Shown here: in pieces, positions 50,074-62,767 of the stretch | Layout of the letters: each line of letters begins with the position of its first letter | Position numbering within the stretch: the stretch's first letter is position 1 | Program-made: the position numbers and the translations under genes | Notes under the pieces: model-generated | What the model was told of the DNA's origin: nothing | The model's input: the letters and a program-made list of their open reading frames with translations, nothing else | Database searches by the model: none | NCBI GenBank assembly: GCA_947258755.1 | Contig: CAMYJO010000002.1 | Coordinates: 68,768-132,767, forward strand | Reading direction: 5' to 3' | DNA: 64,000 nt | DNA from: an uncultured Gammaproteobacteria bacterium | GTDB lineage: Bacteria > Pseudomonadota > Gammaproteobacteria > JAADHQ01

Positions 50074-51527
<1,454 letters not shown>

Positions 51528-51629
51528 TTTTGATGTGCAGCGCTGATGATAACGTCTACAGGATTAGTTTAGATATTTTACGCTTCTGGGTCGATCTCAA
51601 CTAGGGAAATTCGGAAAGGTTTGACAAGC

Positions 51630-52793
51630 ATGATTCCATACGGTCGTCATGATATTAATCAGGAAGACATTGATGCAGTTATTGATGTCTTGCATTCTGA
51701 TTATTTGACTCAAGGGCCTACTGTTCCCGCATTTGAGCAAAGTGTTGCAGGTTATTGTGATGTTCGCTATGCCGTTGCAGTTAACAGTGCGACAAGTGCC
51801 TTGCATATCGCATGTCTAGCTTTGGGTGTTTCAAGCGGCGATATAGTCTGGACAACACCAATTACTTTTGTGGCCAGCGCAAATTGTGCGCTCTATTGTG
51901 GTGCGTCTATTGATTTTGTCGATATCGATCCTCGCACATCTAATATGAGCGTGGATCGCTTATCTGAAAAACTAGCGCAAGCGAAAAAAAACGGATCTCT
52001 GCCTAAGGTAGTTATTCCTGTGCATCTATGTGGCCAGTCCTGTGACATGAAGGCTATACACAAACTTGGCACACAATATGGATTTAGGATAGTCGAAGAT
52101 GCATCGCATGCCATAGGTGGAAAATTTCGTGATGAACCAATTGGCAGCTGTCGTTACAGCGATATCACAGTTTTTAGTTTTCATCCTGTTAAAATAATCA
52201 CTACAGGTGAAGGCGGGATGGCTTTGACCAACGATTCAAAGCTAGCTAAACAAATGCAGTTGTTGCGTAGCCATGGTATAACCCGAGATGTGAGCGAGTT
52301 GTCCCAAGATAGCGATGGGCCTTGGTATTACCAACAAATCGATCTTGGCTTCAATTACCGCATGACTGATATTCAGGCGGCCATAGGTTTAAGTCAATTG
52401 AGACGGTTAGATGAATTTGTGAGCAAGCGGCATGTCATTGCCAAACGATATGACAGTTTATTGCCTGATCTACCAGTAGTTGTTACGTGGCAAGACCCAG
52501 AGAGTTATTCGGGCTTTCATCTGTATGTAATTAGATTGAAGCTAGAAGAAATAACAAATTCACATTTAAAGGTTTTTAAGGAGCTTAGAAATAAAGGTAT
52601 TGGGGTTAATTTGCATTATATCCCCGTGTATAGACAGCCATATTATGAACAATTCGGGTTTAAAGCAGGGTATTGTCCTGAAGCTGAGAAATACTATTCA
52701 GAGGCGATTAGTTTGCCGATGTATCCTCGATTAACAGAGATGCAACAGGATGAAGTTATTTCTGCACTTAGTTCGGTTCTTAAAAAATGTTGA
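51630..52793 (+). CDS. pseC: PseC, UDP-4-keto-sugar aminotransferase
   Basis: This 387-residue PLP aminotransferase of the DegT family makes UDP-4-amino-4,6-dideoxy-beta-L-AltNAc from the PseB product. The start MIPYGRHDINQEDIDAV is standard for PseC; ATG 51630 has GGAAAGG 10 bp upstream, and a TTG three codons earlier is less likely. PLP-binding Lys188 lies in FSFHPVKIITTGEGG, with EDASHAIGG earlier and GFNYRMTDIQAAIG later. It follows pseB after about 100 bp. Confidence 0.93.
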   Translation: MIPYGRHDINQEDIDAVIDVLHSDYLTQGPTVPAFEQSVAGYCDVRYAVAVNSATSALHIACLALGVSSGDIVWTTPITFVASANCALYCGASIDFVDIDPRTSNMSVDRLSEKLAQAKKNGSLPKVVIPVHLCGQSCDMKAIHKLGTQYGFRIVEDASHAIGGKFRDEPIGSCRYSDITVFSFHPVKIITTGEGGMALTNDSKLAKQMQLLRSHGITRDVSELSQDSDGPWYYQQIDLGFNYRMTDIQAAIGLSQLRRLDEFVSKRHVIAKRYDSLLPDLPVVVTWQDPESYSGFHLYVIRLKLEEITNSHLKVFKELRNKGIGVNLHYIPVYRQPYYEQFGFKAGYCPEAEKYYSEAISLPMYPRLTEMQQDEVISALSSVLKKC

Positions 52794-52821
52794 AAATGAT
52801 TACTGTAGGAGCGGAATAGAT

Positions 52822-53463
52822 TTGAAGCAAAAAGATATCTTTTTGCAATCTGAAGGAGACGCCTGGTTTTCCAGAAATCAACGAGACGTCGTTACAAAAA
52901 AACTCCCAGATGACGATGTTTTGTTGTTAGAGATACTCGATTTTCTACCAAACAACGTAGAGAAGATAAAGGTGCTTGAGATTGGTTGTGGTGACGGGAC
53001 GCGGTTATCCTGGATTAAAGATAATCTGAATGCCGATTGTTATGGAATAGAGCCGTCCGCTCAAGCGGTCAAACAGGCATGCGCTAAAGGTATCAATGTG
53101 CGGCAAGGTACAGCTGATATGCTTCCATTTGAGAACCAGAGTTTTGATATTGTGATTTTTGGTTTTTGTCTCTATCTTTGTGATCGTGAAGATTTGTTTC
53201 GTATAGCTGGCGAGGCAGCCCGGGTAGTACGTTCACCTGGGTGGTTAGTGATTATGGATTTTTATAGCCCGACACCACGAGAAAGATCTTATCATCATTG
53301 CACTGGCGTCCAGTGCTATAAAATGGACTACAGGACTTTGTTTACTTGGCATCCTGATTATGAGTGCATGACTCATAAAATAAGGCATCATGCGGAACTT
53401 GGTTATACGGATGACCCGGATGAGTGGATTGCAGTTTCAGTGCTGCGTAAGTATACGAGGTGA
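52822..53463 (+). CDS. SAM-dependent methyltransferase of the glycan cluster
   Basis: The start is set at TTG 52822 because AGGAG (52807-52811) is correctly spaced, giving 213 residues; an ATG at 52750 lies inside pseC. The N-terminus (SEGDAWFSRN, about residues 11-20) is a motif seen in methyltransferases of nonulosonic-acid clusters. The SAM-binding site is VLEIGCGDGTRLSWI (about 52-66), followed by LPFENQSFDIVIF. It is class I (Methyltransf_11-like). The substrate is not known, perhaps a sugar or a linked N-acyl group in this pathway. Confidence 0.82.
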   Translation: MKQKDIFLQSEGDAWFSRNQRDVVTKKLPDDDVLLLEILDFLPNNVEKIKVLEIGCGDGTRLSWIKDNLNADCYGIEPSAQAVKQACAKGINVRQGTADMLPFENQSFDIVIFGFCLYLCDREDLFRIAGEAARVVRSPGWLVIMDFYSPTPRERSYHHCTGVQCYKMDYRTLFTWHPDYECMTHKIRHHAELGYTDDPDEWIAVSVLRKYTR

Positions 53464-53471
53464 TACATTGC

Positions 53472-54341
53472 ATGAGTCGTCTAGCTCTTGGTGCGGTGCA
53501 GTTTGGTTTGCCTTATGGAATTGCAAATGAAACAGGTCAAGTTACACGATTAGCTGCGAGTAAAATGCTTCATCTGGCAGCGATGAATGGGATCGACACA
53601 CTGGATACTGCTATCGCCTATGGCGAAAGTGAAATCTGCTTGGGTGAGGTGGGTGTCAAGGGCTTCAGGCTGGTAACTAAGTTGAGTGCAGTACCAGATG
53701 ATTGTCCTGATGTGGGTATGTGGGTTCAAAAGCAAGTGAAGGATTCACTGGTTCGGCTTGGCGTGCGGTCCGTGTACGGTCTATTGCTGCACCGCTCGTC
53801 ACAATTGCTTGGTAAATATGGCAGGGAGCTATATCAAGCATTGCAAGATTTAAAGCAATCAGGCCAGGTACAAAAAATTGGAATATCTATTTATTCTCCA
53901 GACGAACTGGAAGAGCTAACTTCTTATTATCATTTTGATTTAGTGCAAGCACCTTTTAATATATTTGATATTCGTTTGTCTATGTCAGGATGGTTGCAAC
54001 GACTGAAGGAAAAAGGCATAGAAATTCATGTGCGCTCAGTCTTTTTGCAGGGCCTGTTATTGATGAGTAGAGAGGGTATCCCGGAGAAGTTTACGCCATG
54101 GGCAGGTTTATTGAATAAGTGGCATGAATGGCTACTGCAGAATAATGTTTCTGCTATTCAAGCTTGTCTGGCATATCCGTTGTCGTTTCCAGAAATCGAC
54201 CGGGTTATTGTTGGCGCAGATAGTGTTGCGCAATTAGAGGAAATTATTCAAGCGGCACAGGAAAATATTCCCATTGAAATACCCGATTTTCATTGTGAAG
54301 ACGAAAAATTAATTAATCCCTCCAACTGGAATAACCTGTGA
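53472..54341 (+). CDS. Aldo/keto reductase
   Basis: The 290-residue protein has an NADPH-dependent AKR barrel. The start MSRLALGAVQFGLPYGIAN (53472) has GAGG 11 bp upstream; a GTG four codons earlier overlaps the previous stop. Catalytic residues are visible: Asp and Tyr in LDTAIAYGESE (about 43-53), Lys in LVTKLSA and His in GLLLHRSSQ. Members of this branch occur in glycan and spore-coat polysaccharide clusters. Its place between pse genes suggests reduction of a keto-sugar or side-group intermediate, which is inference. It overlaps the next gene by 4 bp. Confidence 0.85.
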   Translation: MSRLALGAVQFGLPYGIANETGQVTRLAASKMLHLAAMNGIDTLDTAIAYGESEICLGEVGVKGFRLVTKLSAVPDDCPDVGMWVQKQVKDSLVRLGVRSVYGLLLHRSSQLLGKYGRELYQALQDLKQSGQVQKIGISIYSPDELEELTSYYHFDLVQAPFNIFDIRLSMSGWLQRLKEKGIEIHVRSVFLQGLLLMSREGIPEKFTPWAGLLNKWHEWLLQNNVSAIQACLAYPLSFPEIDRVIVGADSVAQLEEIIQAAQENIPIEIPDFHCEDEKLINPSNWNNL

Positions 54342-56365
54342 AAATAATTGCTATCGTACAGGCCCGCATGGATTCAAAGCGGTTCCCAAATAAGGTAATG
54401 CGAACAATTATGGGTGTGCCTATGATTGAGTTATTGCTTAATCGGCTTATGTTGACCAGACGCATTGATAAGATTGTACTGGCAACTACAAATGGCCTTT
54501 GCGATCAAAAATTAGTAGATCATGTCAGCAAGCTCGGCTTTGATGTCTACCGGGGTAGTGAAAATGATGTACTGGGACGATATTATCATGCAGCTTTACC
54601 CTATACGCCTGATGTTGTTGTCCGTATTACCGGAGACTGCCCTCTAATAGATCCAGTTGTGGTCGACGAAGTGTTGGCGACTTTTGCAGAAGCTGGTGTT
54701 GATTATCTAAGCAATATTTCACCGCCAACCTATCCAGATGGTCTTGATGTAGAAGTGCTTACTTTTGAGGCACTTGAACAGGCGCACAGAGAAGCAACTC
54801 ATGTTAGAGAGCGTGAGCATGTTACTCCATATATAAGGGAGTCTGGAAAATTTAAGATAAAAAATATGGCTTATAAAGAAGACTGTTCTAATAAAAGATG
54901 GACGGTTGATGAGCCTGAAGATTTTGAAGTGATTGCTAACGTTTTTAAAAACTTTTACCCAAGAACTGACTTTAGTTGGCTTGAGGTGCTTGAGCTAAAT
55001 AAACAAAATCCACAAATCTTTTCCGCCAATCAACATCTAACAAGAAATGAGGGTGCGAATATGGGAACAGGACAGAAGCTCTGGAATAGAGCTAAAAGAG
55101 TTATTCCTGGCGGCAATATGCTTCTCTCTAAACGGGCAGAGCTTTTTTTACCTGAACAGTGGCCGTCATATTTTAGTAAGGCCAAAGGTTGTAAGGTCTG
55201 GGATCTCGATAATAATGAATTCACTGATATGAGTCTTATGGGGATTGGTACCAATACGCTTGGTTATGGACATCCTGAAGTCGATGATGCTGTACGTTCA
55301 GTTATAGATAAAGGAAACATGTCTACTTTAAATTGCCCAGAGGAAGTTTATCTTGCTGAGCGTTTAGTAGAACTTCATCCGTGGTCAGATATGGTGCGTT
55401 TTGCTCGTTCGGGTGGAGAAGCTAATGCTATAGCTATTCGTATTGCGCGCGCAGCTTCAGGTAGGGATAAGGTGGCTATTTGCGGCTATCATGGTTGGCA
55501 TGATTGGTATCTGGCAGCAAATTTAGGCGATGATCAAAATCTGTCAGGTCACTTACTTCCCGGACTTGCACCTAATGGGGTACCGAAAGATCTGAAGGGT
55601 AGTGTGTTACCTTTCGAATATAATGATTTTGCAGGGCTAGAAAAACTTGTAGCGGAAAATGACATTGGTGTTATTAAAATGGAGGTTTCGCGTAATAAAG
55701 GCCCTGAAATTGGCTATCTTGAAAAGATTCGAAAGCTCGCCACGGATAAAAATATAGTACTAATCTTTGATGAATGCACTTCAGGTTTTCGACAAACACT
55801 GGGCGGTCTGCATAAACAATTTGGTGTAGAGCCAGATATAGCTGTTTTTGGTAAGGCTTTAGGTAATGGTTATGCTATTACAGCAATTCTTGGTCGGCGT
55901 AATATAATGGATGCGGCGCAAACTTCATTTATTAGCAGTACATTTTGGACTGAGCGGATTGGACCAGTTGCTGCATTAAAAACACTTGACGTAATGGAGC
56001 GAGAGCGCTCATATGAGCACATAAGCAATGCGGGGGAAAAAATTAACCAGGGGTGGCAGCAACTTGCCGACAAGTATGAGTTGGATATGCAGATATATGG
56101 CTTACCTGCATTGACTGGTTTTTCATTTAATAGTCCAAATGCCCTGGCGTATAAAACTTTTATAACACAAGAGATGCTGAGTAAGGGATATCTTGCTGCA
56201 ACAGGCGTGTATGTCTGTATCGAACACACGGATAAAATTATAAGTGAATACCTCGAAAATATAGACGATGTATTTGGAATTATTAAGGAATGTGAAGAAG
56301 GAAGAGATATTAACAGTCTGTTGAAAGGGCCTGTTTGTCATAGTGGGTTCAAGCGGATAAATTAA
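54338..56365 (+). CDS. Fusion: SpsF-type nucleotidyltransferase + class-III (GSA-like) aminotransferase
   Basis: This single 675-residue ORF has two enzymes. Residues 1-240 are an SpsF-like nucleotidyltransferase (IVQARMDSKRFPNKVM, VRITGDCPLIDP, SNISPPTYPDGLDVEV). Residues about 245-665 are a class-III PLP aminotransferase of the glutamate-1-semialdehyde aminomutase type (LWNRAKRVIPGG, RFARSGGEANAIAIRIAR, IFDECTSGFR, FGKALGNGY with PLP Lys506). There is no frame break at the joint, only a short linker after NQHLTRNEG. The first half may activate a sugar with CTP; the second may aminate or isomerise a sugar. Both roles are inferred. Confidence 0.87.
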   Translation: MKIIAIVQARMDSKRFPNKVMRTIMGVPMIELLLNRLMLTRRIDKIVLATTNGLCDQKLVDHVSKLGFDVYRGSENDVLGRYYHAALPYTPDVVVRITGDCPLIDPVVVDEVLATFAEAGVDYLSNISPPTYPDGLDVEVLTFEALEQAHREATHVREREHVTPYIRESGKFKIKNMAYKEDCSNKRWTVDEPEDFEVIANVFKNFYPRTDFSWLEVLELNKQNPQIFSANQHLTRNEGANMGTGQKLWNRAKRVIPGGNMLLSKRAELFLPEQWPSYFSKAKGCKVWDLDNNEFTDMSLMGIGTNTLGYGHPEVDDAVRSVIDKGNMSTLNCPEEVYLAERLVELHPWSDMVRFARSGGEANAIAIRIARAASGRDKVAICGYHGWHDWYLAANLGDDQNLSGHLLPGLAPNGVPKDLKGSVLPFEYNDFAGLEKLVAENDIGVIKMEVSRNKGPEIGYLEKIRKLATDKNIVLIFDECTSGFRQTLGGLHKQFGVEPDIAVFGKALGNGYAITAILGRRNIMDAAQTSFISSTFWTERIGPVAALKTLDVMERERSYEHISNAGEKINQGWQQLADKYELDMQIYGLPALTGFSFNSPNALAYKTFITQEMLSKGYLAATGVYVCIEHTDKIISEYLENIDDVFGIIKECEEGRDINSLLKGPVCHSGFKRIN

Positions 56366-56413: not shown

Positions 56414-58000
56414 ATGAAGATAATCTTTCGCGTTGATGCCTCGCAACAAATCGGTTCCGGCCATGTTATGCGTTGCCTCACTTTGGCTGAAGCACTATCT
56501 GATTTAGGTGGCTCAGTGGAATTTATCACACGTGCTCATCCAGGGAATATGAACGAGTATATAAGCAGTAAGGGCTTTAAGGTACATTCACTACCAATTC
56601 CACCAGGTACTGAGATTAAACAGGGCTTGAGTGGGTATGAACATTGGCTTGTAGTCACACAGGAGGGGGATGCTGATAGTAGTATACAGGTACTTGCGGA
56701 TACTCAAGTTGACTGGTTAATTGTCGACCACTATGCGCTGGGCCATGCCTGGGAAGAGAAACTAAGGCCTTTCGTTCGTAAGATCATGGTGATTGATGAT
56801 TTGGCCAACCGCCAGCATGATTGCGATGTATTGCTTGATCAGAATTATATTCATGATTGCAGACGTTATGAACCGTTACTCTTGCCAGCAACGACTCAAT
56901 TGCTGGGTCCTGGCTATGCCCTGTTGAGGAAGGACTTTGCGAAAAATCGCTGTTGTAATGCGAGGGAATACGGGGTAGTCAATAATATCTTCGTATTTTT
57001 TGGTGGATCTGACCCAGATAACATGACATCAATAGCGCTGAGAGCATTGACTAGGCCAGATCTGAAGCATCTGCTGGTGGACGTGGTGATTGGATCAGCC
57101 AATCCGAATTTCATAGAAGTGAGAGCATTGGTGACAAAACACCCGAATGCTCGCCTTCATGTGCAGGTTGAGAACATAGTAGAATTAATGTGTAAATCCG
57201 ATGTTGCACTAGGGGCGGGAGGCACTACAACCTGGGAGCGGTTGGCAGCAGGTTTGCCCAGTATTGTAGTGACCATTGCAGAGAATCAGGTTGCCTTAAT
57301 AAGAGACCTGGATCAGGATGGATATCTTAAATGGCTGGGAAATGCTGTTCAGATGGATTCTGACAAGATGCATGATGCTCTGCTTGAGGTAATTCGAAAC
57401 CCTCACCAGCTTCAAACGCAATCTAGAAAAGGCCAAAAGTTAATAGATGGTATGGGCGTCCGAAACACTGCCAGGTTGCTATTAAAGGGACCTGAAATTG
57501 ATACCCTGACAGTTCGAAAAGCAAAAGCCACAGACTGTCTACTTTATTGGTACTGGGCCAATGATCCAGTGGTCAGATTAAATGCCTTCAATCAGCAAGC
57601 TATAAAATGGGAAGATCATCAGTCTTGGTTTAAAAAACGGTCAAATGACCCTGACACGATTCTGCTGGTGATAGAGTGTCAATATGGGCCGATCGGGCAA
57701 GTGCGGTTTGATCGTACAGATACACATTTTATGATTAGTTACTCAATTGTTAGGCAATTTCGAGGAGTTGGCTTGGGTAATTCAATGCTCAAAATTGCAA
57801 TCAATTACCTGCAGCCGGAGGAGCCAATTACATTGATTGGCGATGTAAGAGAGACTAATGTAGCTTCTAGAAAGATATTTGAGCAATTAGGGTTCAGTGA
57901 ATCTACTCTTCCTCCACGAAAGGGGGCGCTTCGATATCAGTTGCTGTTTGACCCTTCAAAGCAAAATGGGGAAGCTACGGTTCAACTAGCTGAGGACTGA
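56414..58000 (+). CDS. pseG: PseG-PseH fusion: UDP-sugar hydrolase and N-acetyltransferase
   Basis: This 528-residue ORF joins two steps of pseudaminic acid synthesis. Residues 1-360 are PseG, a GT-B-like hydrolase that removes UDP from UDP-2,4-diacetamido-2,4,6-trideoxy-L-altrose (FRVDASQQIGSGHVMRCLTL with catalytic His17, IDDLANRQHDCDVLLDQN, FFGGSDP, GAGGTTTWERLAAGLP). Residues about 365-515 are a GNAT domain in the PseH position (TVRKAKATDCLLYWYWANDPVVR, RGVGLGNSMLKIAI, NVASRKIFEQLGF). PseH acts before PseG in the pathway, so the fusion may channel the intermediate. Separate pseG and pseH genes are the usual state. Confidence 0.9.
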   Translation: MKIIFRVDASQQIGSGHVMRCLTLAEALSDLGGSVEFITRAHPGNMNEYISSKGFKVHSLPIPPGTEIKQGLSGYEHWLVVTQEGDADSSIQVLADTQVDWLIVDHYALGHAWEEKLRPFVRKIMVIDDLANRQHDCDVLLDQNYIHDCRRYEPLLLPATTQLLGPGYALLRKDFAKNRCCNAREYGVVNNIFVFFGGSDPDNMTSIALRALTRPDLKHLLVDVVIGSANPNFIEVRALVTKHPNARLHVQVENIVELMCKSDVALGAGGTTTWERLAAGLPSIVVTIAENQVALIRDLDQDGYLKWLGNAVQMDSDKMHDALLEVIRNPHQLQTQSRKGQKLIDGMGVRNTARLLLKGPEIDTLTVRKAKATDCLLYWYWANDPVVRLNAFNQQAIKWEDHQSWFKKRSNDPDTILLVIECQYGPIGQVRFDRTDTHFMISYSIVRQFRGVGLGNSMLKIAINYLQPEEPITLIGDVRETNVASRKIFEQLGFSESTLPPRKGALRYQLLFDPSKQNGEATVQLAED

Positions 58001-58070: not shown

Positions 58071-59117
58071 ATGGGAATAAACATTGGTGAAGTGGTGATA
58101 GCGCAGGATACACGTCCGTTTATTATTGCAGAGATGTCAGGTAACCATAATCAATCGCTAGAGCGTGCGTTATCAATTGTCGAAGCAGCCGCAGCTGCAG
58201 GCGTTCACGCCCTTAAACTTCAAACGTATACTGCTGATACAATCACGCTCGATATTGAAGAGGGTGATTTTTTCATAAGCGATGAAAGTAGCTTATGGAA
58301 GGGTAAAAGTCTTCATGAGCTCTATGGGCAAGCGTATACTCCCTGGGAATGGCATCAGCCGATTATGAGGCGGGCAAATGAGTTGGGCATGATCTGCTTT
58401 AGTTCACCGTTCGATGACTCGGCAGTCGACTTTCTTGAAGGCTTGAATGTACCGGCCTACAAGATTGCCTCATTTGAGAATACTCACTTGCCATTAATCA
58501 GAAAAGTGGCTTCGACTGGTAAGCCGATGATTATTTCAACCGGTATGGCATCAGTGGCTGAAATTCATGAGGCAGTTACTGCAGCGCGAGAGGCAGGCTG
58601 CGAAGAATTGATATTGCTTAAATGTACAAGCACATATCCTGCTAGCCCGGAAAATAGCAATGTATTGACTATTCCGCATATGCGAGAATTGTTTGGCTGT
58701 GAAGTAGGTTTGTCTGACCACACAATGGGGGTTGGCGTATCAGTTGCCGCAGTGGCACATGGTGCAACCGTAATTGAAAAACACTTCACCCTATCTCGGT
58801 CAGATGGTGGAGTAGATAGTAGTTTTTCATTGGAGCCGCATGAGCTTAAATCTTTGGTGATAGAAACTGAGCGTGCATGGCAGTCACTCGGTGATGTTGT
58901 TTATGGCGCTACAGGTGGCGAAGATAAGTCGCAAATGTTCAGGCGGTCACTCTATGTCGCTGAAGACATGGCAGCAGGAGAAAGCTTTACCGAACAAAAT
59001 CTGAAAGTTGTTCGTCCAGGTATGGGATTGCCAGCAAAGTACTATGAGTTGTTACTTGGGCGAAAGGTAAGAATGGATGTGAAAAAGGGGACAGCTGTAA
59101 GCTGGGATTTGGTGTGA
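58071..59117 (+). CDS. pseI: PseI, pseudaminic acid synthase
   Basis: This 348-residue NeuB-family enzyme condenses the 6-deoxy-AltdiNAc sugar with phosphoenolpyruvate to give pseudaminic acid. The N-terminal barrel starts PFIIAEMSGNHNQSLERAL (about residues 16-34), typical of PseI rather than NeuB or LegI. LKLQTYTADTITL, CFSSPFDDSAVDFLE, KIASFENTHLPLI, LLKCTSTYPA and LSDHTMGVGV follow, and a C-terminal SAF antifreeze-like domain (about 290-348) ends the protein. A 70-bp gap separates it from the PseG-PseH gene. Confidence 0.95.
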   Translation: MGINIGEVVIAQDTRPFIIAEMSGNHNQSLERALSIVEAAAAAGVHALKLQTYTADTITLDIEEGDFFISDESSLWKGKSLHELYGQAYTPWEWHQPIMRRANELGMICFSSPFDDSAVDFLEGLNVPAYKIASFENTHLPLIRKVASTGKPMIISTGMASVAEIHEAVTAAREAGCEELILLKCTSTYPASPENSNVLTIPHMRELFGCEVGLSDHTMGVGVSVAAVAHGATVIEKHFTLSRSDGGVDSSFSLEPHELKSLVIETERAWQSLGDVVYGATGGEDKSQMFRRSLYVAEDMAAGESFTEQNLKVVRPGMGLPAKYYELLLGRKVRMDVKKGTAVSWDLV

Positions 59118-59225
59118 GAACAATTTAAGCTAATCACGCTAAAAATTGCTTATTGTATGTTTTCGTAGAGATTCAAGGTTATTTTAACAACAATTTATAT
59201 GCTTGCTTATTCTAAAAATACTAAT

Positions 59226-59960
59226 ATGAAAATTGTAGCTACCATCGAAGCCCGAATGACATCTTCTCGCTTGCCGGGAAAAGTATTGATGGAGAGTTTA
59301 AACAAGCCTATGTTGCATCATCTTGTAACACGCCTGCGTGAAGTGCCTTCTGTGGATGCTATTGTTTTGGCGACCACCACAAATACAACAGATGATATAT
59401 TGGTGTCATTCGCGGAAAGTGAAGGTATCGCTTGTTTTAGAGGAAGTGAAGATGATGTAATGGAAAGGGTAATAGGGGCAGCAAGCTCTGTTAATTCAGA
59501 TGTAGTAGTAGAGATAACGGGTGATTGCCCGATTATCGACCCAGAGATAATTGAGCAAGCGATAAGAATGTTTTTAGTTAATGGTGCAGATTATGTGAGT
59601 AATGCAGATATTCGTAGTTACCCTGATGGGATGGATGTCCAGGTTTTTCGATTAGATACATTGAAACGATCGGCATCAATGACGACGAATTCACTTGAGC
59701 GTGAACATGTCACATTGCATATTCGTAATCATCCTGAGTTATTTTCCAAGCTACACCTTGTTGCTCCACCTGAGATACATTGGCCTGAGCTTAGGCTGAC
59801 TCTTGATGAAATAGCTGACTACGAATTATTAAAACGTATTATAGAATATTTTGGACGGGATCGACCTCTCTTTACTTGTCTGGATATAGTACGTTTGCTG
59901 CGAAAGAATATTGATTGGATAGAAATTAATCAAGCAGTGCAACCAAAAGGTGATACCTAA
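59226..59960 (+). CDS. Second SpsF-type nucleotidyltransferase
   Basis: The start at 59226 (MKIVATIEARMTSSRLPGKV) matches the conserved family N-terminus and gives 244 residues; ATG 59199 would add nine, and neither has a strong ribosome site. The fold is that of the CMP-sugar synthetase/SpsF group: EITGDCPIIDPEIIEQA, YVSNADIRSYPDGMDVQVF, TLDEIADYELLKRI. It is related to the N-terminal half of the 54338 fusion. SpsF-type proteins differ from classical PseF at the P-loop (EARMTSSRLPGK rather than ARxGSKxIxxKN), so activating Pse with CTP is only a candidate role. Confidence 0.83.
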   Translation: MKIVATIEARMTSSRLPGKVLMESLNKPMLHHLVTRLREVPSVDAIVLATTTNTTDDILVSFAESEGIACFRGSEDDVMERVIGAASSVNSDVVVEITGDCPIIDPEIIEQAIRMFLVNGADYVSNADIRSYPDGMDVQVFRLDTLKRSASMTTNSLEREHVTLHIRNHPELFSKLHLVAPPEIHWPELRLTLDEIADYELLKRIIEYFGRDRPLFTCLDIVRLLRKNIDWIEINQAVQPKGDT

Positions 59961-59961
59961 T

Positions 59962-60921
59962 TTGAGAAAGAGTGTTCTAATCGTTGGTTTAGGCCAGATA
60001 GGTATGGGGTATGATCTTCATCTAGATCCCGCATTACATGTTTATTCACATACACGGGCCTTCAGCCTACACCCAGAATTTAACTTGTTAGCTGCAGTTG
60101 AGCCTGATGAGAAAAAACAAGAAGCTTTTATTCAAACTTATAAATCGCCTGTATATAGTGATGTTGATTCCGCGCTCGCACAGCATCAGCCTGATGTAAT
60201 AGTGATTGCTGTGTCTACTCAATTACATGCTGAGACTTTGTATAAAGTCCTGGATAAGAGCAATCCAAAGGTAATATTGTGCGAAAAGCCTTTGTCATAT
60301 AATTCCGATGATGCTCGAAAGATGGTTCAATTATGCGAAGCCAAGGGGGTGAAGTTATATGTGAACTATATGCGCCGTTCCGATCCAGGAGTTATTAAAA
60401 TAAAAAAATTGATTGACTCAGGAGAGTGTCAAATTCCTATTAAAGGCGTGGTCTGGTATTCTAAAGGATTTCTACATAATGGGTCGCATTTTTTTAATTT
60501 AATAGAGTATTGGTTAGGTCCAATGGAAAATTATAGCTTATTGGAAAGAGGACGCTTATGGGACGGTGTAGATCCTGAGCCGGATGTGCGAGTGAAGTTT
60601 AACAAAGGTACTGTAATTTTTTTATCTGCCTGGGAGGAAGCATTTTCACATTATACGATTGAGCTACTTTCTATGAGCGGTAGGATTAGATATGAACAGC
60701 AAGGCGCTATGATTCAATGGCAATCTGTTAAGGATGACCCTGTGTATAAAGGGCATAAGCTATTGGCGCCCAACTCAGAAGAAATCAGTTCAGATATGGC
60801 ACGCTCTCAATGGAATGTGATAAATCAATTGAGCCAGGTAATGTCAGGACAGGATGGGTATCTCTGTGCGGGTTCAGATGCACTTAATACCCTTGAAAAT
60901 ATGAGTTTGATTCTTAAGTAG
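59962..60921 (+). CDS. Gfo/Idh/MocA-family oxidoreductase
   Basis: The 319-residue protein is a probable NAD(P)-dependent sugar dehydrogenase. TTG 59962 is taken as start because AAGG (59947-59950) is well spaced; GTG 59950 is the alternative and overlaps the previous stop. The Rossmann segment VLIVGLGQIGMGYDLHL (about residues 5-21) and the conserved CEKPLSYNSDDARKM (about 108-122), with Glu-Lys-Pro, are the family signature, followed by a beta-sheet C-domain. It precedes an aminotransferase, a pair that commonly builds 3-amino or 4-amino sugars by oxidation then amination. Confidence 0.85.
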   Translation: MRKSVLIVGLGQIGMGYDLHLDPALHVYSHTRAFSLHPEFNLLAAVEPDEKKQEAFIQTYKSPVYSDVDSALAQHQPDVIVIAVSTQLHAETLYKVLDKSNPKVILCEKPLSYNSDDARKMVQLCEAKGVKLYVNYMRRSDPGVIKIKKLIDSGECQIPIKGVVWYSKGFLHNGSHFFNLIEYWLGPMENYSLLERGRLWDGVDPEPDVRVKFNKGTVIFLSAWEEAFSHYTIELLSMSGRIRYEQQGAMIQWQSVKDDPVYKGHKLLAPNSEEISSDMARSQWNVINQLSQVMSGQDGYLCAGSDALNTLENMSLILK

Positions 60922-60929
60922 AGTTCATT

Positions 60930-62219
60930 ATGACAGTAAAAACTTTAGCACTTTTTGGTGGATCTAAAGCAATTCCTGAACCATTTAAGCGTTATAATTC
61001 AATTGGTCAGGAAGAGCTTGAAAGTGTTAAATCAATAGTTGAAAGTGGTGTGTTATCACAGTTTTTGGGTTGTTGGGACCCTGATTTTTACGGCGGTCCT
61101 AAGGTTCAGGAATTTGAGCGTCAATGTGAAGCATATTTTGGTGTTAAGCATGCTATTACAGTTAATTCCTGGACATCCGGCCTGATAGCGGCTGTTGGAG
61201 CTATTGGTATTGAGCCTGGCGACGAAGTCATTGTCAGTCCCTGGACAATGTGTGCAAGTGCTACTGCTATTCTTATGTGGAATGCAATACCCGTATTTGC
61301 AGACATTGAACCAGAGACATTCTGCATTAATCCATCATCTATTGAGAAAAATATAACACCTTATACAAAGGCCATTCTGGCGATAGACATCTTTGGTCAC
61401 TCCGCTGATATGGATGCAATTATGGATATTGCAGAACGCCACGGCCTAAAAGTGATCTCTGACACAGCGCAAGCACCAGGTACATTATATAAAAGTCAAA
61501 AAACAGGTACATTAGCGCATGTCGGAGGTTATAGCCTGAACTACCATAAACATATTCATACGGGTGAGGGAGGGTTGCTGGTTACGAATGATGATGATAT
61601 TGCAGAGCGTTTACAATTGATCCGAAATCATGCAGAGGCCGTGGTGGAAGATAAGGGCGTACATAATCTTACAAATATGGTCGGCTATAATTTTCGCTTA
61701 GGTGAAATGGAGTGTGCCATAGGAATTGAGCAATTGAAAAAGCTGGATGATCTTGTCGCAGGACGTCAACGTGCAGCTGAACGCTTGACTGCAGGTTTGC
61801 ATGAATTGGAGGGGCTTCGTACACCTATTGTCAATCCTGATTGCACCCATGCCTATTATATGTATCCGCTCATACTGGATATTGATAAGCTTGGCGTATC
61901 CCGGACACGAATTATTGAGGCGTTGGCAGCTGAGGGTGTCGATGGGCTGGCTGGTGGCTATGTGAATGTGCATCTTTTGCCTATGTATCAGCAGAAAATC
62001 GCATTTGGTTCGAAAGGTTTTCCCTGGACATCGGATATTTGCAGACGTGATGTGAATTATACTAAAGGCATATGTCCGGTTGCTGAAGGACTACATGATT
62101 CAAGTTTTTTGGGTTATGAAATGTGTGTTTATGAACTAACAGATACTGATGTTGATTTGATAATTCAGGCTTTTAAAAAAGTTTGGGCGAATATAGAAAA
62201 GCTCAAATTAGTTGAATAA
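60930..62219 (+). CDS. DegT/DnrJ/EryC1/StrS-family sugar aminotransferase
   Basis: The 429-residue PLP enzyme aminates a keto-sugar nucleotide. LGCWDPDFYGGPKVQEFER and VKHAITVNSWTSGL open the protein. VISDTAQAPG and Lys207 in LNYHKHIHTGEGG mark the PLP site, and NFRLGEMECAIGIEQLKKL is the family dimer region. At 429 residues it is longer than PseC (387). GSKAIPEP near the start and an HNLTNMVGYNFR-type loop place it in a different DegT branch. It follows the Gfo/Idh/MocA gene by 8 bp, so the two probably act in sequence. Confidence 0.9.
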   Translation: MTVKTLALFGGSKAIPEPFKRYNSIGQEELESVKSIVESGVLSQFLGCWDPDFYGGPKVQEFERQCEAYFGVKHAITVNSWTSGLIAAVGAIGIEPGDEVIVSPWTMCASATAILMWNAIPVFADIEPETFCINPSSIEKNITPYTKAILAIDIFGHSADMDAIMDIAERHGLKVISDTAQAPGTLYKSQKTGTLAHVGGYSLNYHKHIHTGEGGLLVTNDDDIAERLQLIRNHAEAVVEDKGVHNLTNMVGYNFRLGEMECAIGIEQLKKLDDLVAGRQRAAERLTAGLHELEGLRTPIVNPDCTHAYYMYPLILDIDKLGVSRTRIIEALAAEGVDGLAGGYVNVHLLPMYQQKIAFGSKGFPWTSDICRRDVNYTKGICPVAEGLHDSSFLGYEMCVYELTDTDVDLIIQAFKKVWANIEKLKLVE

Positions 62220-62233
62220 AAGGTGCATTTAAT

Positions 62234-62767
62234 TTGGCTGATAAGACTTTAATGCTAAGAGGCGATAACATACGTTTACAGTCTGTAAGTGATGAAAGCA
62301 TAACGGATGAATATGTTAATTGGCTAAATGATAAAGAAGTGGTCCGTTTTAGTAATCAACGCTTCATGCAACATAGTAAGGAAAGCTGTTTAGCTTATTT
62401 GCAGTCTTTTCAGGGCACAGATAATATATTTCTTTCTATTAATGAGATTAAAAATGATCGAGCAATTGGCTCAATTACGGCCTATTTGAATATCCATCAT
62501 GGCACTGCAGACATGGGTTTACTGATAGGAGATCGCTCAGTCTGGGGGAATGGGTATGGGCTCGAAGCGTGGCAGCTACTGATGGGATATTTGTTTAATG
62601 ATGCAAAAATAAGAAAAGTTACTGGTGGAACAGTGCGTGATAATATCGCTATGATTAAGATAATGGAGCGATCGGGTATGCATCTTGAAGCTATCAGGAA
62701 AAAACAAGAGCTGATAAGCGGTGTTGCAATAGATGTGCTTCACTTTGCAAAGTTTTTAGATGTTTGA
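62234..62767 (+). CDS. GNAT-family N-acetyltransferase
   Basis: The 177-residue RimJ/RimL-type acetyltransferase starts at TTG 62234, with AAAGGTG about 10 bp upstream; ATG 62252 (MLRGDNIRLQSV) is the alternative. Motifs are VNWLNDKEVVRFSNQR, ADMGLLIGDRSVWGNGYGLEAW (acetyl-CoA loop, in part about 91-112) and GTVRDNIAMIKIMERSGM. It probably acetylates the amino-sugar made by the preceding aminotransferase. It overlaps the next gene by 8 bp. Confidence 0.87.
   Translation: MADKTLMLRGDNIRLQSVSDESITDEYVNWLNDKEVVRFSNQRFMQHSKESCLAYLQSFQGTDNIFLSINEIKNDRAIGSITAYLNIHHGTADMGLLIGDRSVWGNGYGLEAWQLLMGYLFNDAKIRKVTGGTVRDNIAMIKIMERSGMHLEAIRKKQELISGVAIDVLHFAKFLDV

Follow-up and report, generated by a model that had tools for sequence, protein, structure and literature searches.

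Within a pse operon of the 64,000-nucleotide stretch of DNA analysed here (the window), a single reading frame encodes an SpsF-type cytidylyltransferase domain joined to a class-III, glutamate-semialdehyde (GSA)-type PLP aminotransferase domain. The SpsF domain most likely makes a CMP sugar in place of a missing PseF, and this activation is well supported, being the sole step with direct genomic support. The protein as a whole may serve two late steps in the synthesis of nonulosonic acids, its product being an 8-amino form of pseudaminic acid (Pse), a reading to which we assign a probability of about 45%. The folds of the two halves were already known; what is new here is a specific role for a widespread fusion. 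It had been foreseen that the fusion might turn out to be a widespread enzyme with a known, unrelated function; it is indeed widespread, but no function for it was found in the open-access literature.

The operon is ordered pseB, pseC, a methyltransferase gene, an aldo/keto reductase (AKR) gene, the fusion, pseG-pseH and pseI, followed by a second SpsF module (Table 1). PseB, PseC, PseG and PseI all score over their NCBIfam cut-offs; the PseH domain fused to PseG is under that of TIGR03585 (42.9 versus 93.1 bits). The AKR gene ends at 54341 and overlaps the start of the fusion by 4 bases, which agrees with the original prediction that the fusion lies in a pse operon right after an AKR. The slot occupied by the methyltransferase is filled at other loci by a GNAT or FemAB protein. 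The union of pseG and a pseH-like GNAT domain in one frame (56414–58000) is shared with several Chlorobium and Burkholderiales loci.

Table 1. Features of the pse operon and the adjoining module (positions in the window)
Feature	Position	Strand	Description
pseB	50529–51527	+	TIGR03589, 559.6 bits (cut-off 407.75)
pseC	51621–52793	+	TIGR03588, 572.2 bits (cut-off 423.5)
SAM methyltransferase	52750–53463	+	PF08241; slot between pseC and AKR
Aldo/keto reductase (AKR)	53460–54341	+	PF00248, 105.9 bits; proposed C8 dehydrogenase
SpsF-GSA fusion	54338–56365	+	GTG start, 675 aa, no internal stops
N-terminal SpsF-type cytidylyltransferase domain of fusion	54338–55030	+	PF02348; residues ~1–231
C-terminal class-III (GSA-type) PLP aminotransferase domain of fusion	55058–56362	+	PF00202; residues ~241–675
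pseG fused to pseH-like GNAT domain	56414–58000	+	TIGR03590, 302.5 bits (over cut-off)
pseI, pseudaminic acid synthase	58071–59117	+	TIGR03586, 495.8 bits (cut-off 340.25)
Second, stand-alone SpsF-type cytidylyltransferase	59199–59960	+	PF02348, 107.2 bits; start of separate module
Gfo/Idh oxidoreductase, DegT aminotransferase, small ORF	59950–62767	+	PF01408, PF01041 (Pfam)

Pfam profiles match the fusion at residues 4–172 (PF02348, CTP_transf_3; 105.7 bits against a cut-off of 22.6) and 278–618 (PF00202, Aminotran_3; 141.4 bits against 30.5), bearing out the earlier assignment of a nucleotidyltransferase and an aminotransferase to one polypeptide. With PF02348 over cut-off and the nucleotide and metal sites kept, the protein belongs to the CMP-ulosonate cytidylyltransferase superfamily, and residues Q8, A9, R10, S13, R15, K19, D100, D191 and D195 are invariant among 42 aligned fusions. 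It is likewise a class-III aminotransferase, since PF00202 is over cut-off and the PLP lysine and aspartate are present; these residues, K506 and D478, mapped onto GSAM by alignment, are invariant in the same 42 sequences. The fusion scores well below the equivalog cut-offs of both PseF (TIGR03584, 22.5 bits against 205.7) and the HemL aminomutase (TIGR00713, 195.1 bits against 527.3), although the fold and catalytic residues of the GSA domain are like those of HemL. The same genome also encodes, as a distinct gene, a class-III protein about as long as HemL (C23). In an AlphaFold model built from the 42 fusions (mean pLDDT 85.6, with loop 262–278 and the final five residues poorly predicted), the first domain superimposes on a Leptospira borgpetersenii cytidylyltransferase (6oew; Z 34.2, rmsd 1.7 over 235 residues) and the second on GSAM (2cfb; Z 36.0) and FumI (6hbv; Z 35.3), the best fold matches of the PLP domain being aminotransferases and aminomutases. 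Both domains share one ORF in 81 of the 89 GSA-domain ORFs at 111 loci, the SpsF domain being absent from the ORF in the other 8; because of this arrangement and the invariance of the key residues, the fusion is genuine and not a product of chance. The two halves are adjacent genes at three loci (L058, L081 and L084), and at L077 the GSA half stands alone with PseF ∼6 kb downstream.

A species-level genome scan yielded at least 581 stretches encoding a relative of the fusion, and the 80 that were kept cover 13 phyla, so that relatives occur in at least 13 bacterial phyla. Carriers include free-living bacteria (Pelagibacteraceae and Prochlorococcus) and the cultured Marinobacter persicus and Neptuniibacter caesariensis, and an archaeal plasmid gives one match over the whole length of the fusion (45.9%). 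E. coli genomes gave no DNA match, and none of the 48 matching phage records reaches 80% query coverage. By script, an AKR lies directly upstream (within 250 bases) at 68 of the 80 loci, overlapping the fusion or lying no more than 20 bases from it at 63 of these; L030, whose AKR is joined to a second SpsF, brings the count to 69. Three of the loci lacking an upstream AKR begin at a contig end. PseI/NeuB was recognized at 57 of the 80 loci, PseC at 54, PseB at 53 and PseG at 36; 12 loci, of which several are short contigs, showed neither PseB nor PseI. Fusions of AKR to SpsF occur at L030, L043 and L107. A SAR86 genome (L062:6421–7998) encodes a PseF-AKR fusion directly upstream of the SpsF-GSA fusion, so that both nucleotidyltransferase types are tied there to the same AKR.

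The SpsF domain is assigned as a substitute for PseF because PseF is absent from the genome of origin and depleted in loci that carry the fusion. No PseF over cut-off was found in that genome, which is rated 100% complete; its PF02348 proteins are the fusion, the second SpsF, one weak match and one strong match on another contig that is taken to be KdsB. PseF over cut-off is present in 3 of 40 fusion-bearing genomes (those of 40 of the 80 kept loci) and in 14 of 25 other PseI genomes of the same class. Among loci with pseB, pseC and pseI, it occurs at 2 of 36 with the GSA domain versus 13 of 15 without; as the GSA-positive loci were mostly chosen by similarity to the fusion, the SpsF count follows by construction, but the PseF depletion does not. 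The two GSA-negative loci counted as lacking PseF are L107, which has an SpsF-AKR fusion, and L128, where PseF is on the other strand. In a domain tree, a quick reconstruction with several long branches and 41 fused rows, the split between SpsF-type and PseF-type sequences has a support of 100, and the fused label requires 6 changes versus 27.6 in shuffles. PseF and the fusion share the PF02348 superfamily and a place in the pathway and are complementary in occurrence, but differ in the TIGR03584 score and in this split of the tree.

SpsF-type proteins have been linked to similar clusters before. A Vibrionaceae paper proposes that a Vibrio SpsF-AKR fusion stands in for an absent NeuA (PMC7371886), and a Caulobacter paper describes FlmC as cytidylyltransferase-like, without PseF homology, and as completing a set of six genes with which flagellin is glycosylated in E. 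coli (PMC7591256). These proteins (SpsF/FlmC-type, including the SpsF-AKR fusion of Vibrio B9-25K2, with FlmC likened by description) resemble the window's protein in placing an SpsF domain in Pse clusters without PseF; they differ in that the partner here is a class-III aminotransferase.

PseF is retained beside the fusion at L018 and L067, so substitution for PseF does not account for the SpsF domain at every locus. These two loci, the presence of two SpsF-type proteins in the window and the location of SpsF next to PseI at L122, L125 and L129 (directly after it at L122 and L129) are the grounds for an alternative in which the stand-alone SpsF at 59199 replaces PseF and the fusion makes a CMP sugar other than CMP-Pse. 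We regard this as unlikely: the window's second SpsF was matched at only 10 of 82 loci, which leaves the fusion as the sole candidate at most of them. At L125, PseI and SpsF form a natural fusion; these links between SpsF and PseI also speak for the activating role of the SpsF domain. The original prediction that the enzyme implies an extra modification divides in two: an extra amination is the best reading, but the SpsF domain supplies the missing PseF rather than an extra activation.

The point made at the outset, that the standard PseB-C-H-G-I-F route has no step for a class-III aminotransferase, is also correct. In the mechanism that we propose, PseB, PseC, PseH, PseG and PseI would form pseudaminic acid, as the family matches support. 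The AKR would then oxidise the secondary alcohol at C8, CH3-CH(OH)-R, to a methyl ketone, which the GSA-type domain would transaminate to CH3-CH(NH2)-R, and the SpsF-type domain, standing in for PseF, would use CTP to activate the sugar, the well-supported step. This would yield CMP-8-amino-8-deoxy-pseudaminic acid, either as such or N-substituted, and activation could precede or follow the chemistry at C8. We infer the oxidation and amination at C8 from the enzyme families, the operon types and the known sugars taken together. FumI, one of the two close fold matches, acts on CH3-CH(NH2)-R. Residues D49, Y54, K74 and H111 of the AKR, which we take to be the D-Y-K-H catalytic tetrad of aldo/keto reductases, are each present in 82 of 82 aligned rows, and the protein classifies as an active AKR of PF00248; with this tetrad and the PLP residues K506 and D478 all conserved, activity is expected of both the AKR and the PLP domain. 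The nearest solved relatives of the AKR are weak matches and include L-galactose dehydrogenase, an oxidising AKR.

A second kind of operon bears on the position of this chemistry. It contains pseB, AKR, the fusion, an RmlD-like reductase, NeuB and a GT2 in varying order, and PseC and PseG are absent (L036, L037 and L052, and likewise L033, with pseB unseen in its stretch). As the PseC route would provide no C7 amine in these operons and the AKR-fusion pair is nevertheless present, C7 chemistry is not a common feature, and C8 or C4 is the likelier site of the shared reaction; of the possible positions we favour C8 over C5 and C7.

Sugars of the proposed type have precedents. A review reports an 8-amino-3,5,7,8,9-pentadeoxy nonulosonic acid, its ring manno and its C8 left undetermined, from the O-polysaccharide of Flexibacter maritimus (now Tenacibaculum maritimum), with a placement of the acyl groups that differs from one sentence to the next, and it also covers Kdo8N in Shewanella (PMC3210612). 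The Kdo8N transaminase (5k8b) resembles the DegT protein of the window and not the GSA domain. The logic of the Kdo8N route is alike: a terminal-side hydroxyl is oxidised and aminated, and the product is then CMP-activated.

The DegT protein, which is KdnA-like, belongs to the second module (59199–62767), which may be another set for ulosonic acid amination and could claim the C8 chemistry equally well. It matches 5k8b with 172.5 bits over nearly its full length, although perosamine synthetases score higher, and the small ORF is called a GNAT on a weak acetyltransferase match alone. In the domain tree the second SpsF falls in its own stand-alone clade with those of L008, L015, L034 and L040. 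Genes related to the module were seen at these four loci and at L061, and a similar gene order follows PseI at L129, a locus without the fusion.

Because a third amine might need an acyltransferase, an excess of such enzymes might be expected at GSA loci. When all ORFs of 36 GSA and 15 non-GSA loci were recounted with a broader GNAT profile, the excess was not significant (1.0 versus 0.67 per locus, p = 0.13); we prefer this recount to an earlier GNAT-or-FemAB count (p = 0.001), which was biased by profiles trained on GSA loci. Two or more GNATs occur at 7 of the 36 GSA loci versus none of the 15 without GSA, and L016 combines a true PseH (117.1 bits) with a second GNAT adjoining the AKR.

The O-chains of Legionella pneumophila non-1 serogroups are legionaminic acid epimers that are not known to carry a third amine, and such chains in serogroups 6 and 12 would favour an epimerising role for the pair. 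As one paper describes, the Sg6 and Sg12 O-antigen cluster encodes PseG, a GSA-type protein, a cytidylyltransferase, an AKR, DegT, CapD and NeuB, with the two halves as split genes (PMC3694923). This split version may argue against C8 amination and for the alternative that the AKR inverts the configuration at a hydroxyl-bearing carbon (C4 or C8) while the PLP domain epimerises the amine carbon, giving 8-epi or 4-epi forms. Consistent with such a role, epimers at both C8 and C4 exist, and no pathway is known for 4-epilegionaminic acid (PMC5595891); the PDB matches include class-III racemases; and at L107 an AKR-SpsF fusion has an SDR dehydrogenase for its partner in place of the GSA domain. Several points make an epimerase improbable: by comparison of the published names, conversion of Pse to 4-epilegionaminic acid would take four inversions, the operons lacking PseC offer no C7 amine to invert, and the closest folds are those of aminotransferases and aminomutases. 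Less probable still is that the product of the PLP domain is not a sugar amine but an amino-acyl or amino-alcohol group for attachment to the sugar, a role to which the FemAB-family protein (TIGR04421) in the slot before the AKR at L008 and L012 and the nearby formyltransferases and PIG-L deacetylases could point, but CTP_transf_3 enzymes activate ulosonic acids, so that a partner fused to one is expected to act on the sugar, and the annotated neighbour families include no acyl-activating enzyme.

The FemAB-family protein of L008 (L008:5811–6881, between pseC and the AKR; 308.9 bits, cut-off 250) possibly transfers an aminoacyl group to the new amine.

Several published or apparent counterparts of the fusion were considered and set aside. 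Sinorhizobium RkpN is a plain PseF-like protein with 46% identity to PseF, and the best match in NGR234 spans the second domain only (29.9%). The acinetaminic acid genes aciABCD form a module that builds on legionaminic genes with SDRs (PMC5595891). The text of the paper on Shewanella sfmABCDE contains no aminotransferase or cytidyl- terms, a Clostridium Pse paper names no SpsF-GSA fusion, and semialdehyde and aldo terms are absent from a Leptospira paper. A 679-aa frame with PseF in one genome (G188) results from read-through of another frame lying upstream and is no true fusion.

If C8 amination is correct, it would give a function to a widespread protein, annotated in databases as glutamate-1-semialdehyde aminomutase in its second half, show how a sugar whose structure was reported in 2003 is made, make 8-amino nonulosonic acids predictable from genomes and explain how many Pse clusters work without PseF. 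To our knowledge, 8-amino-8-deoxy pseudaminic-type acids are known from a single fish-pathogen O-antigen. We suggest, tentatively and with somewhat less confidence than the enzyme assignment itself, that the AKR-fusion pair is the first identified route to these acids and is common in free-living bacteria, which would make 8-amino nonulosonic acids a large, overlooked class of sugars on bacterial surfaces. A positively charged amine at C8 would alter the charge and recognition of the glycan.

ORFs resembling pilB, pilC and pilD lie upstream of the Pse operon in the window. About 11 kb past the window end, the same genome carries two type IV pilin genes (L145:12199–13191) together with glycosyltransferases, a UDP-GlcNAc 2-epimerase and a 645-aa protein without a Pfam match, all near the Pse operon; the pilin may be decorated by the Pse sugar.
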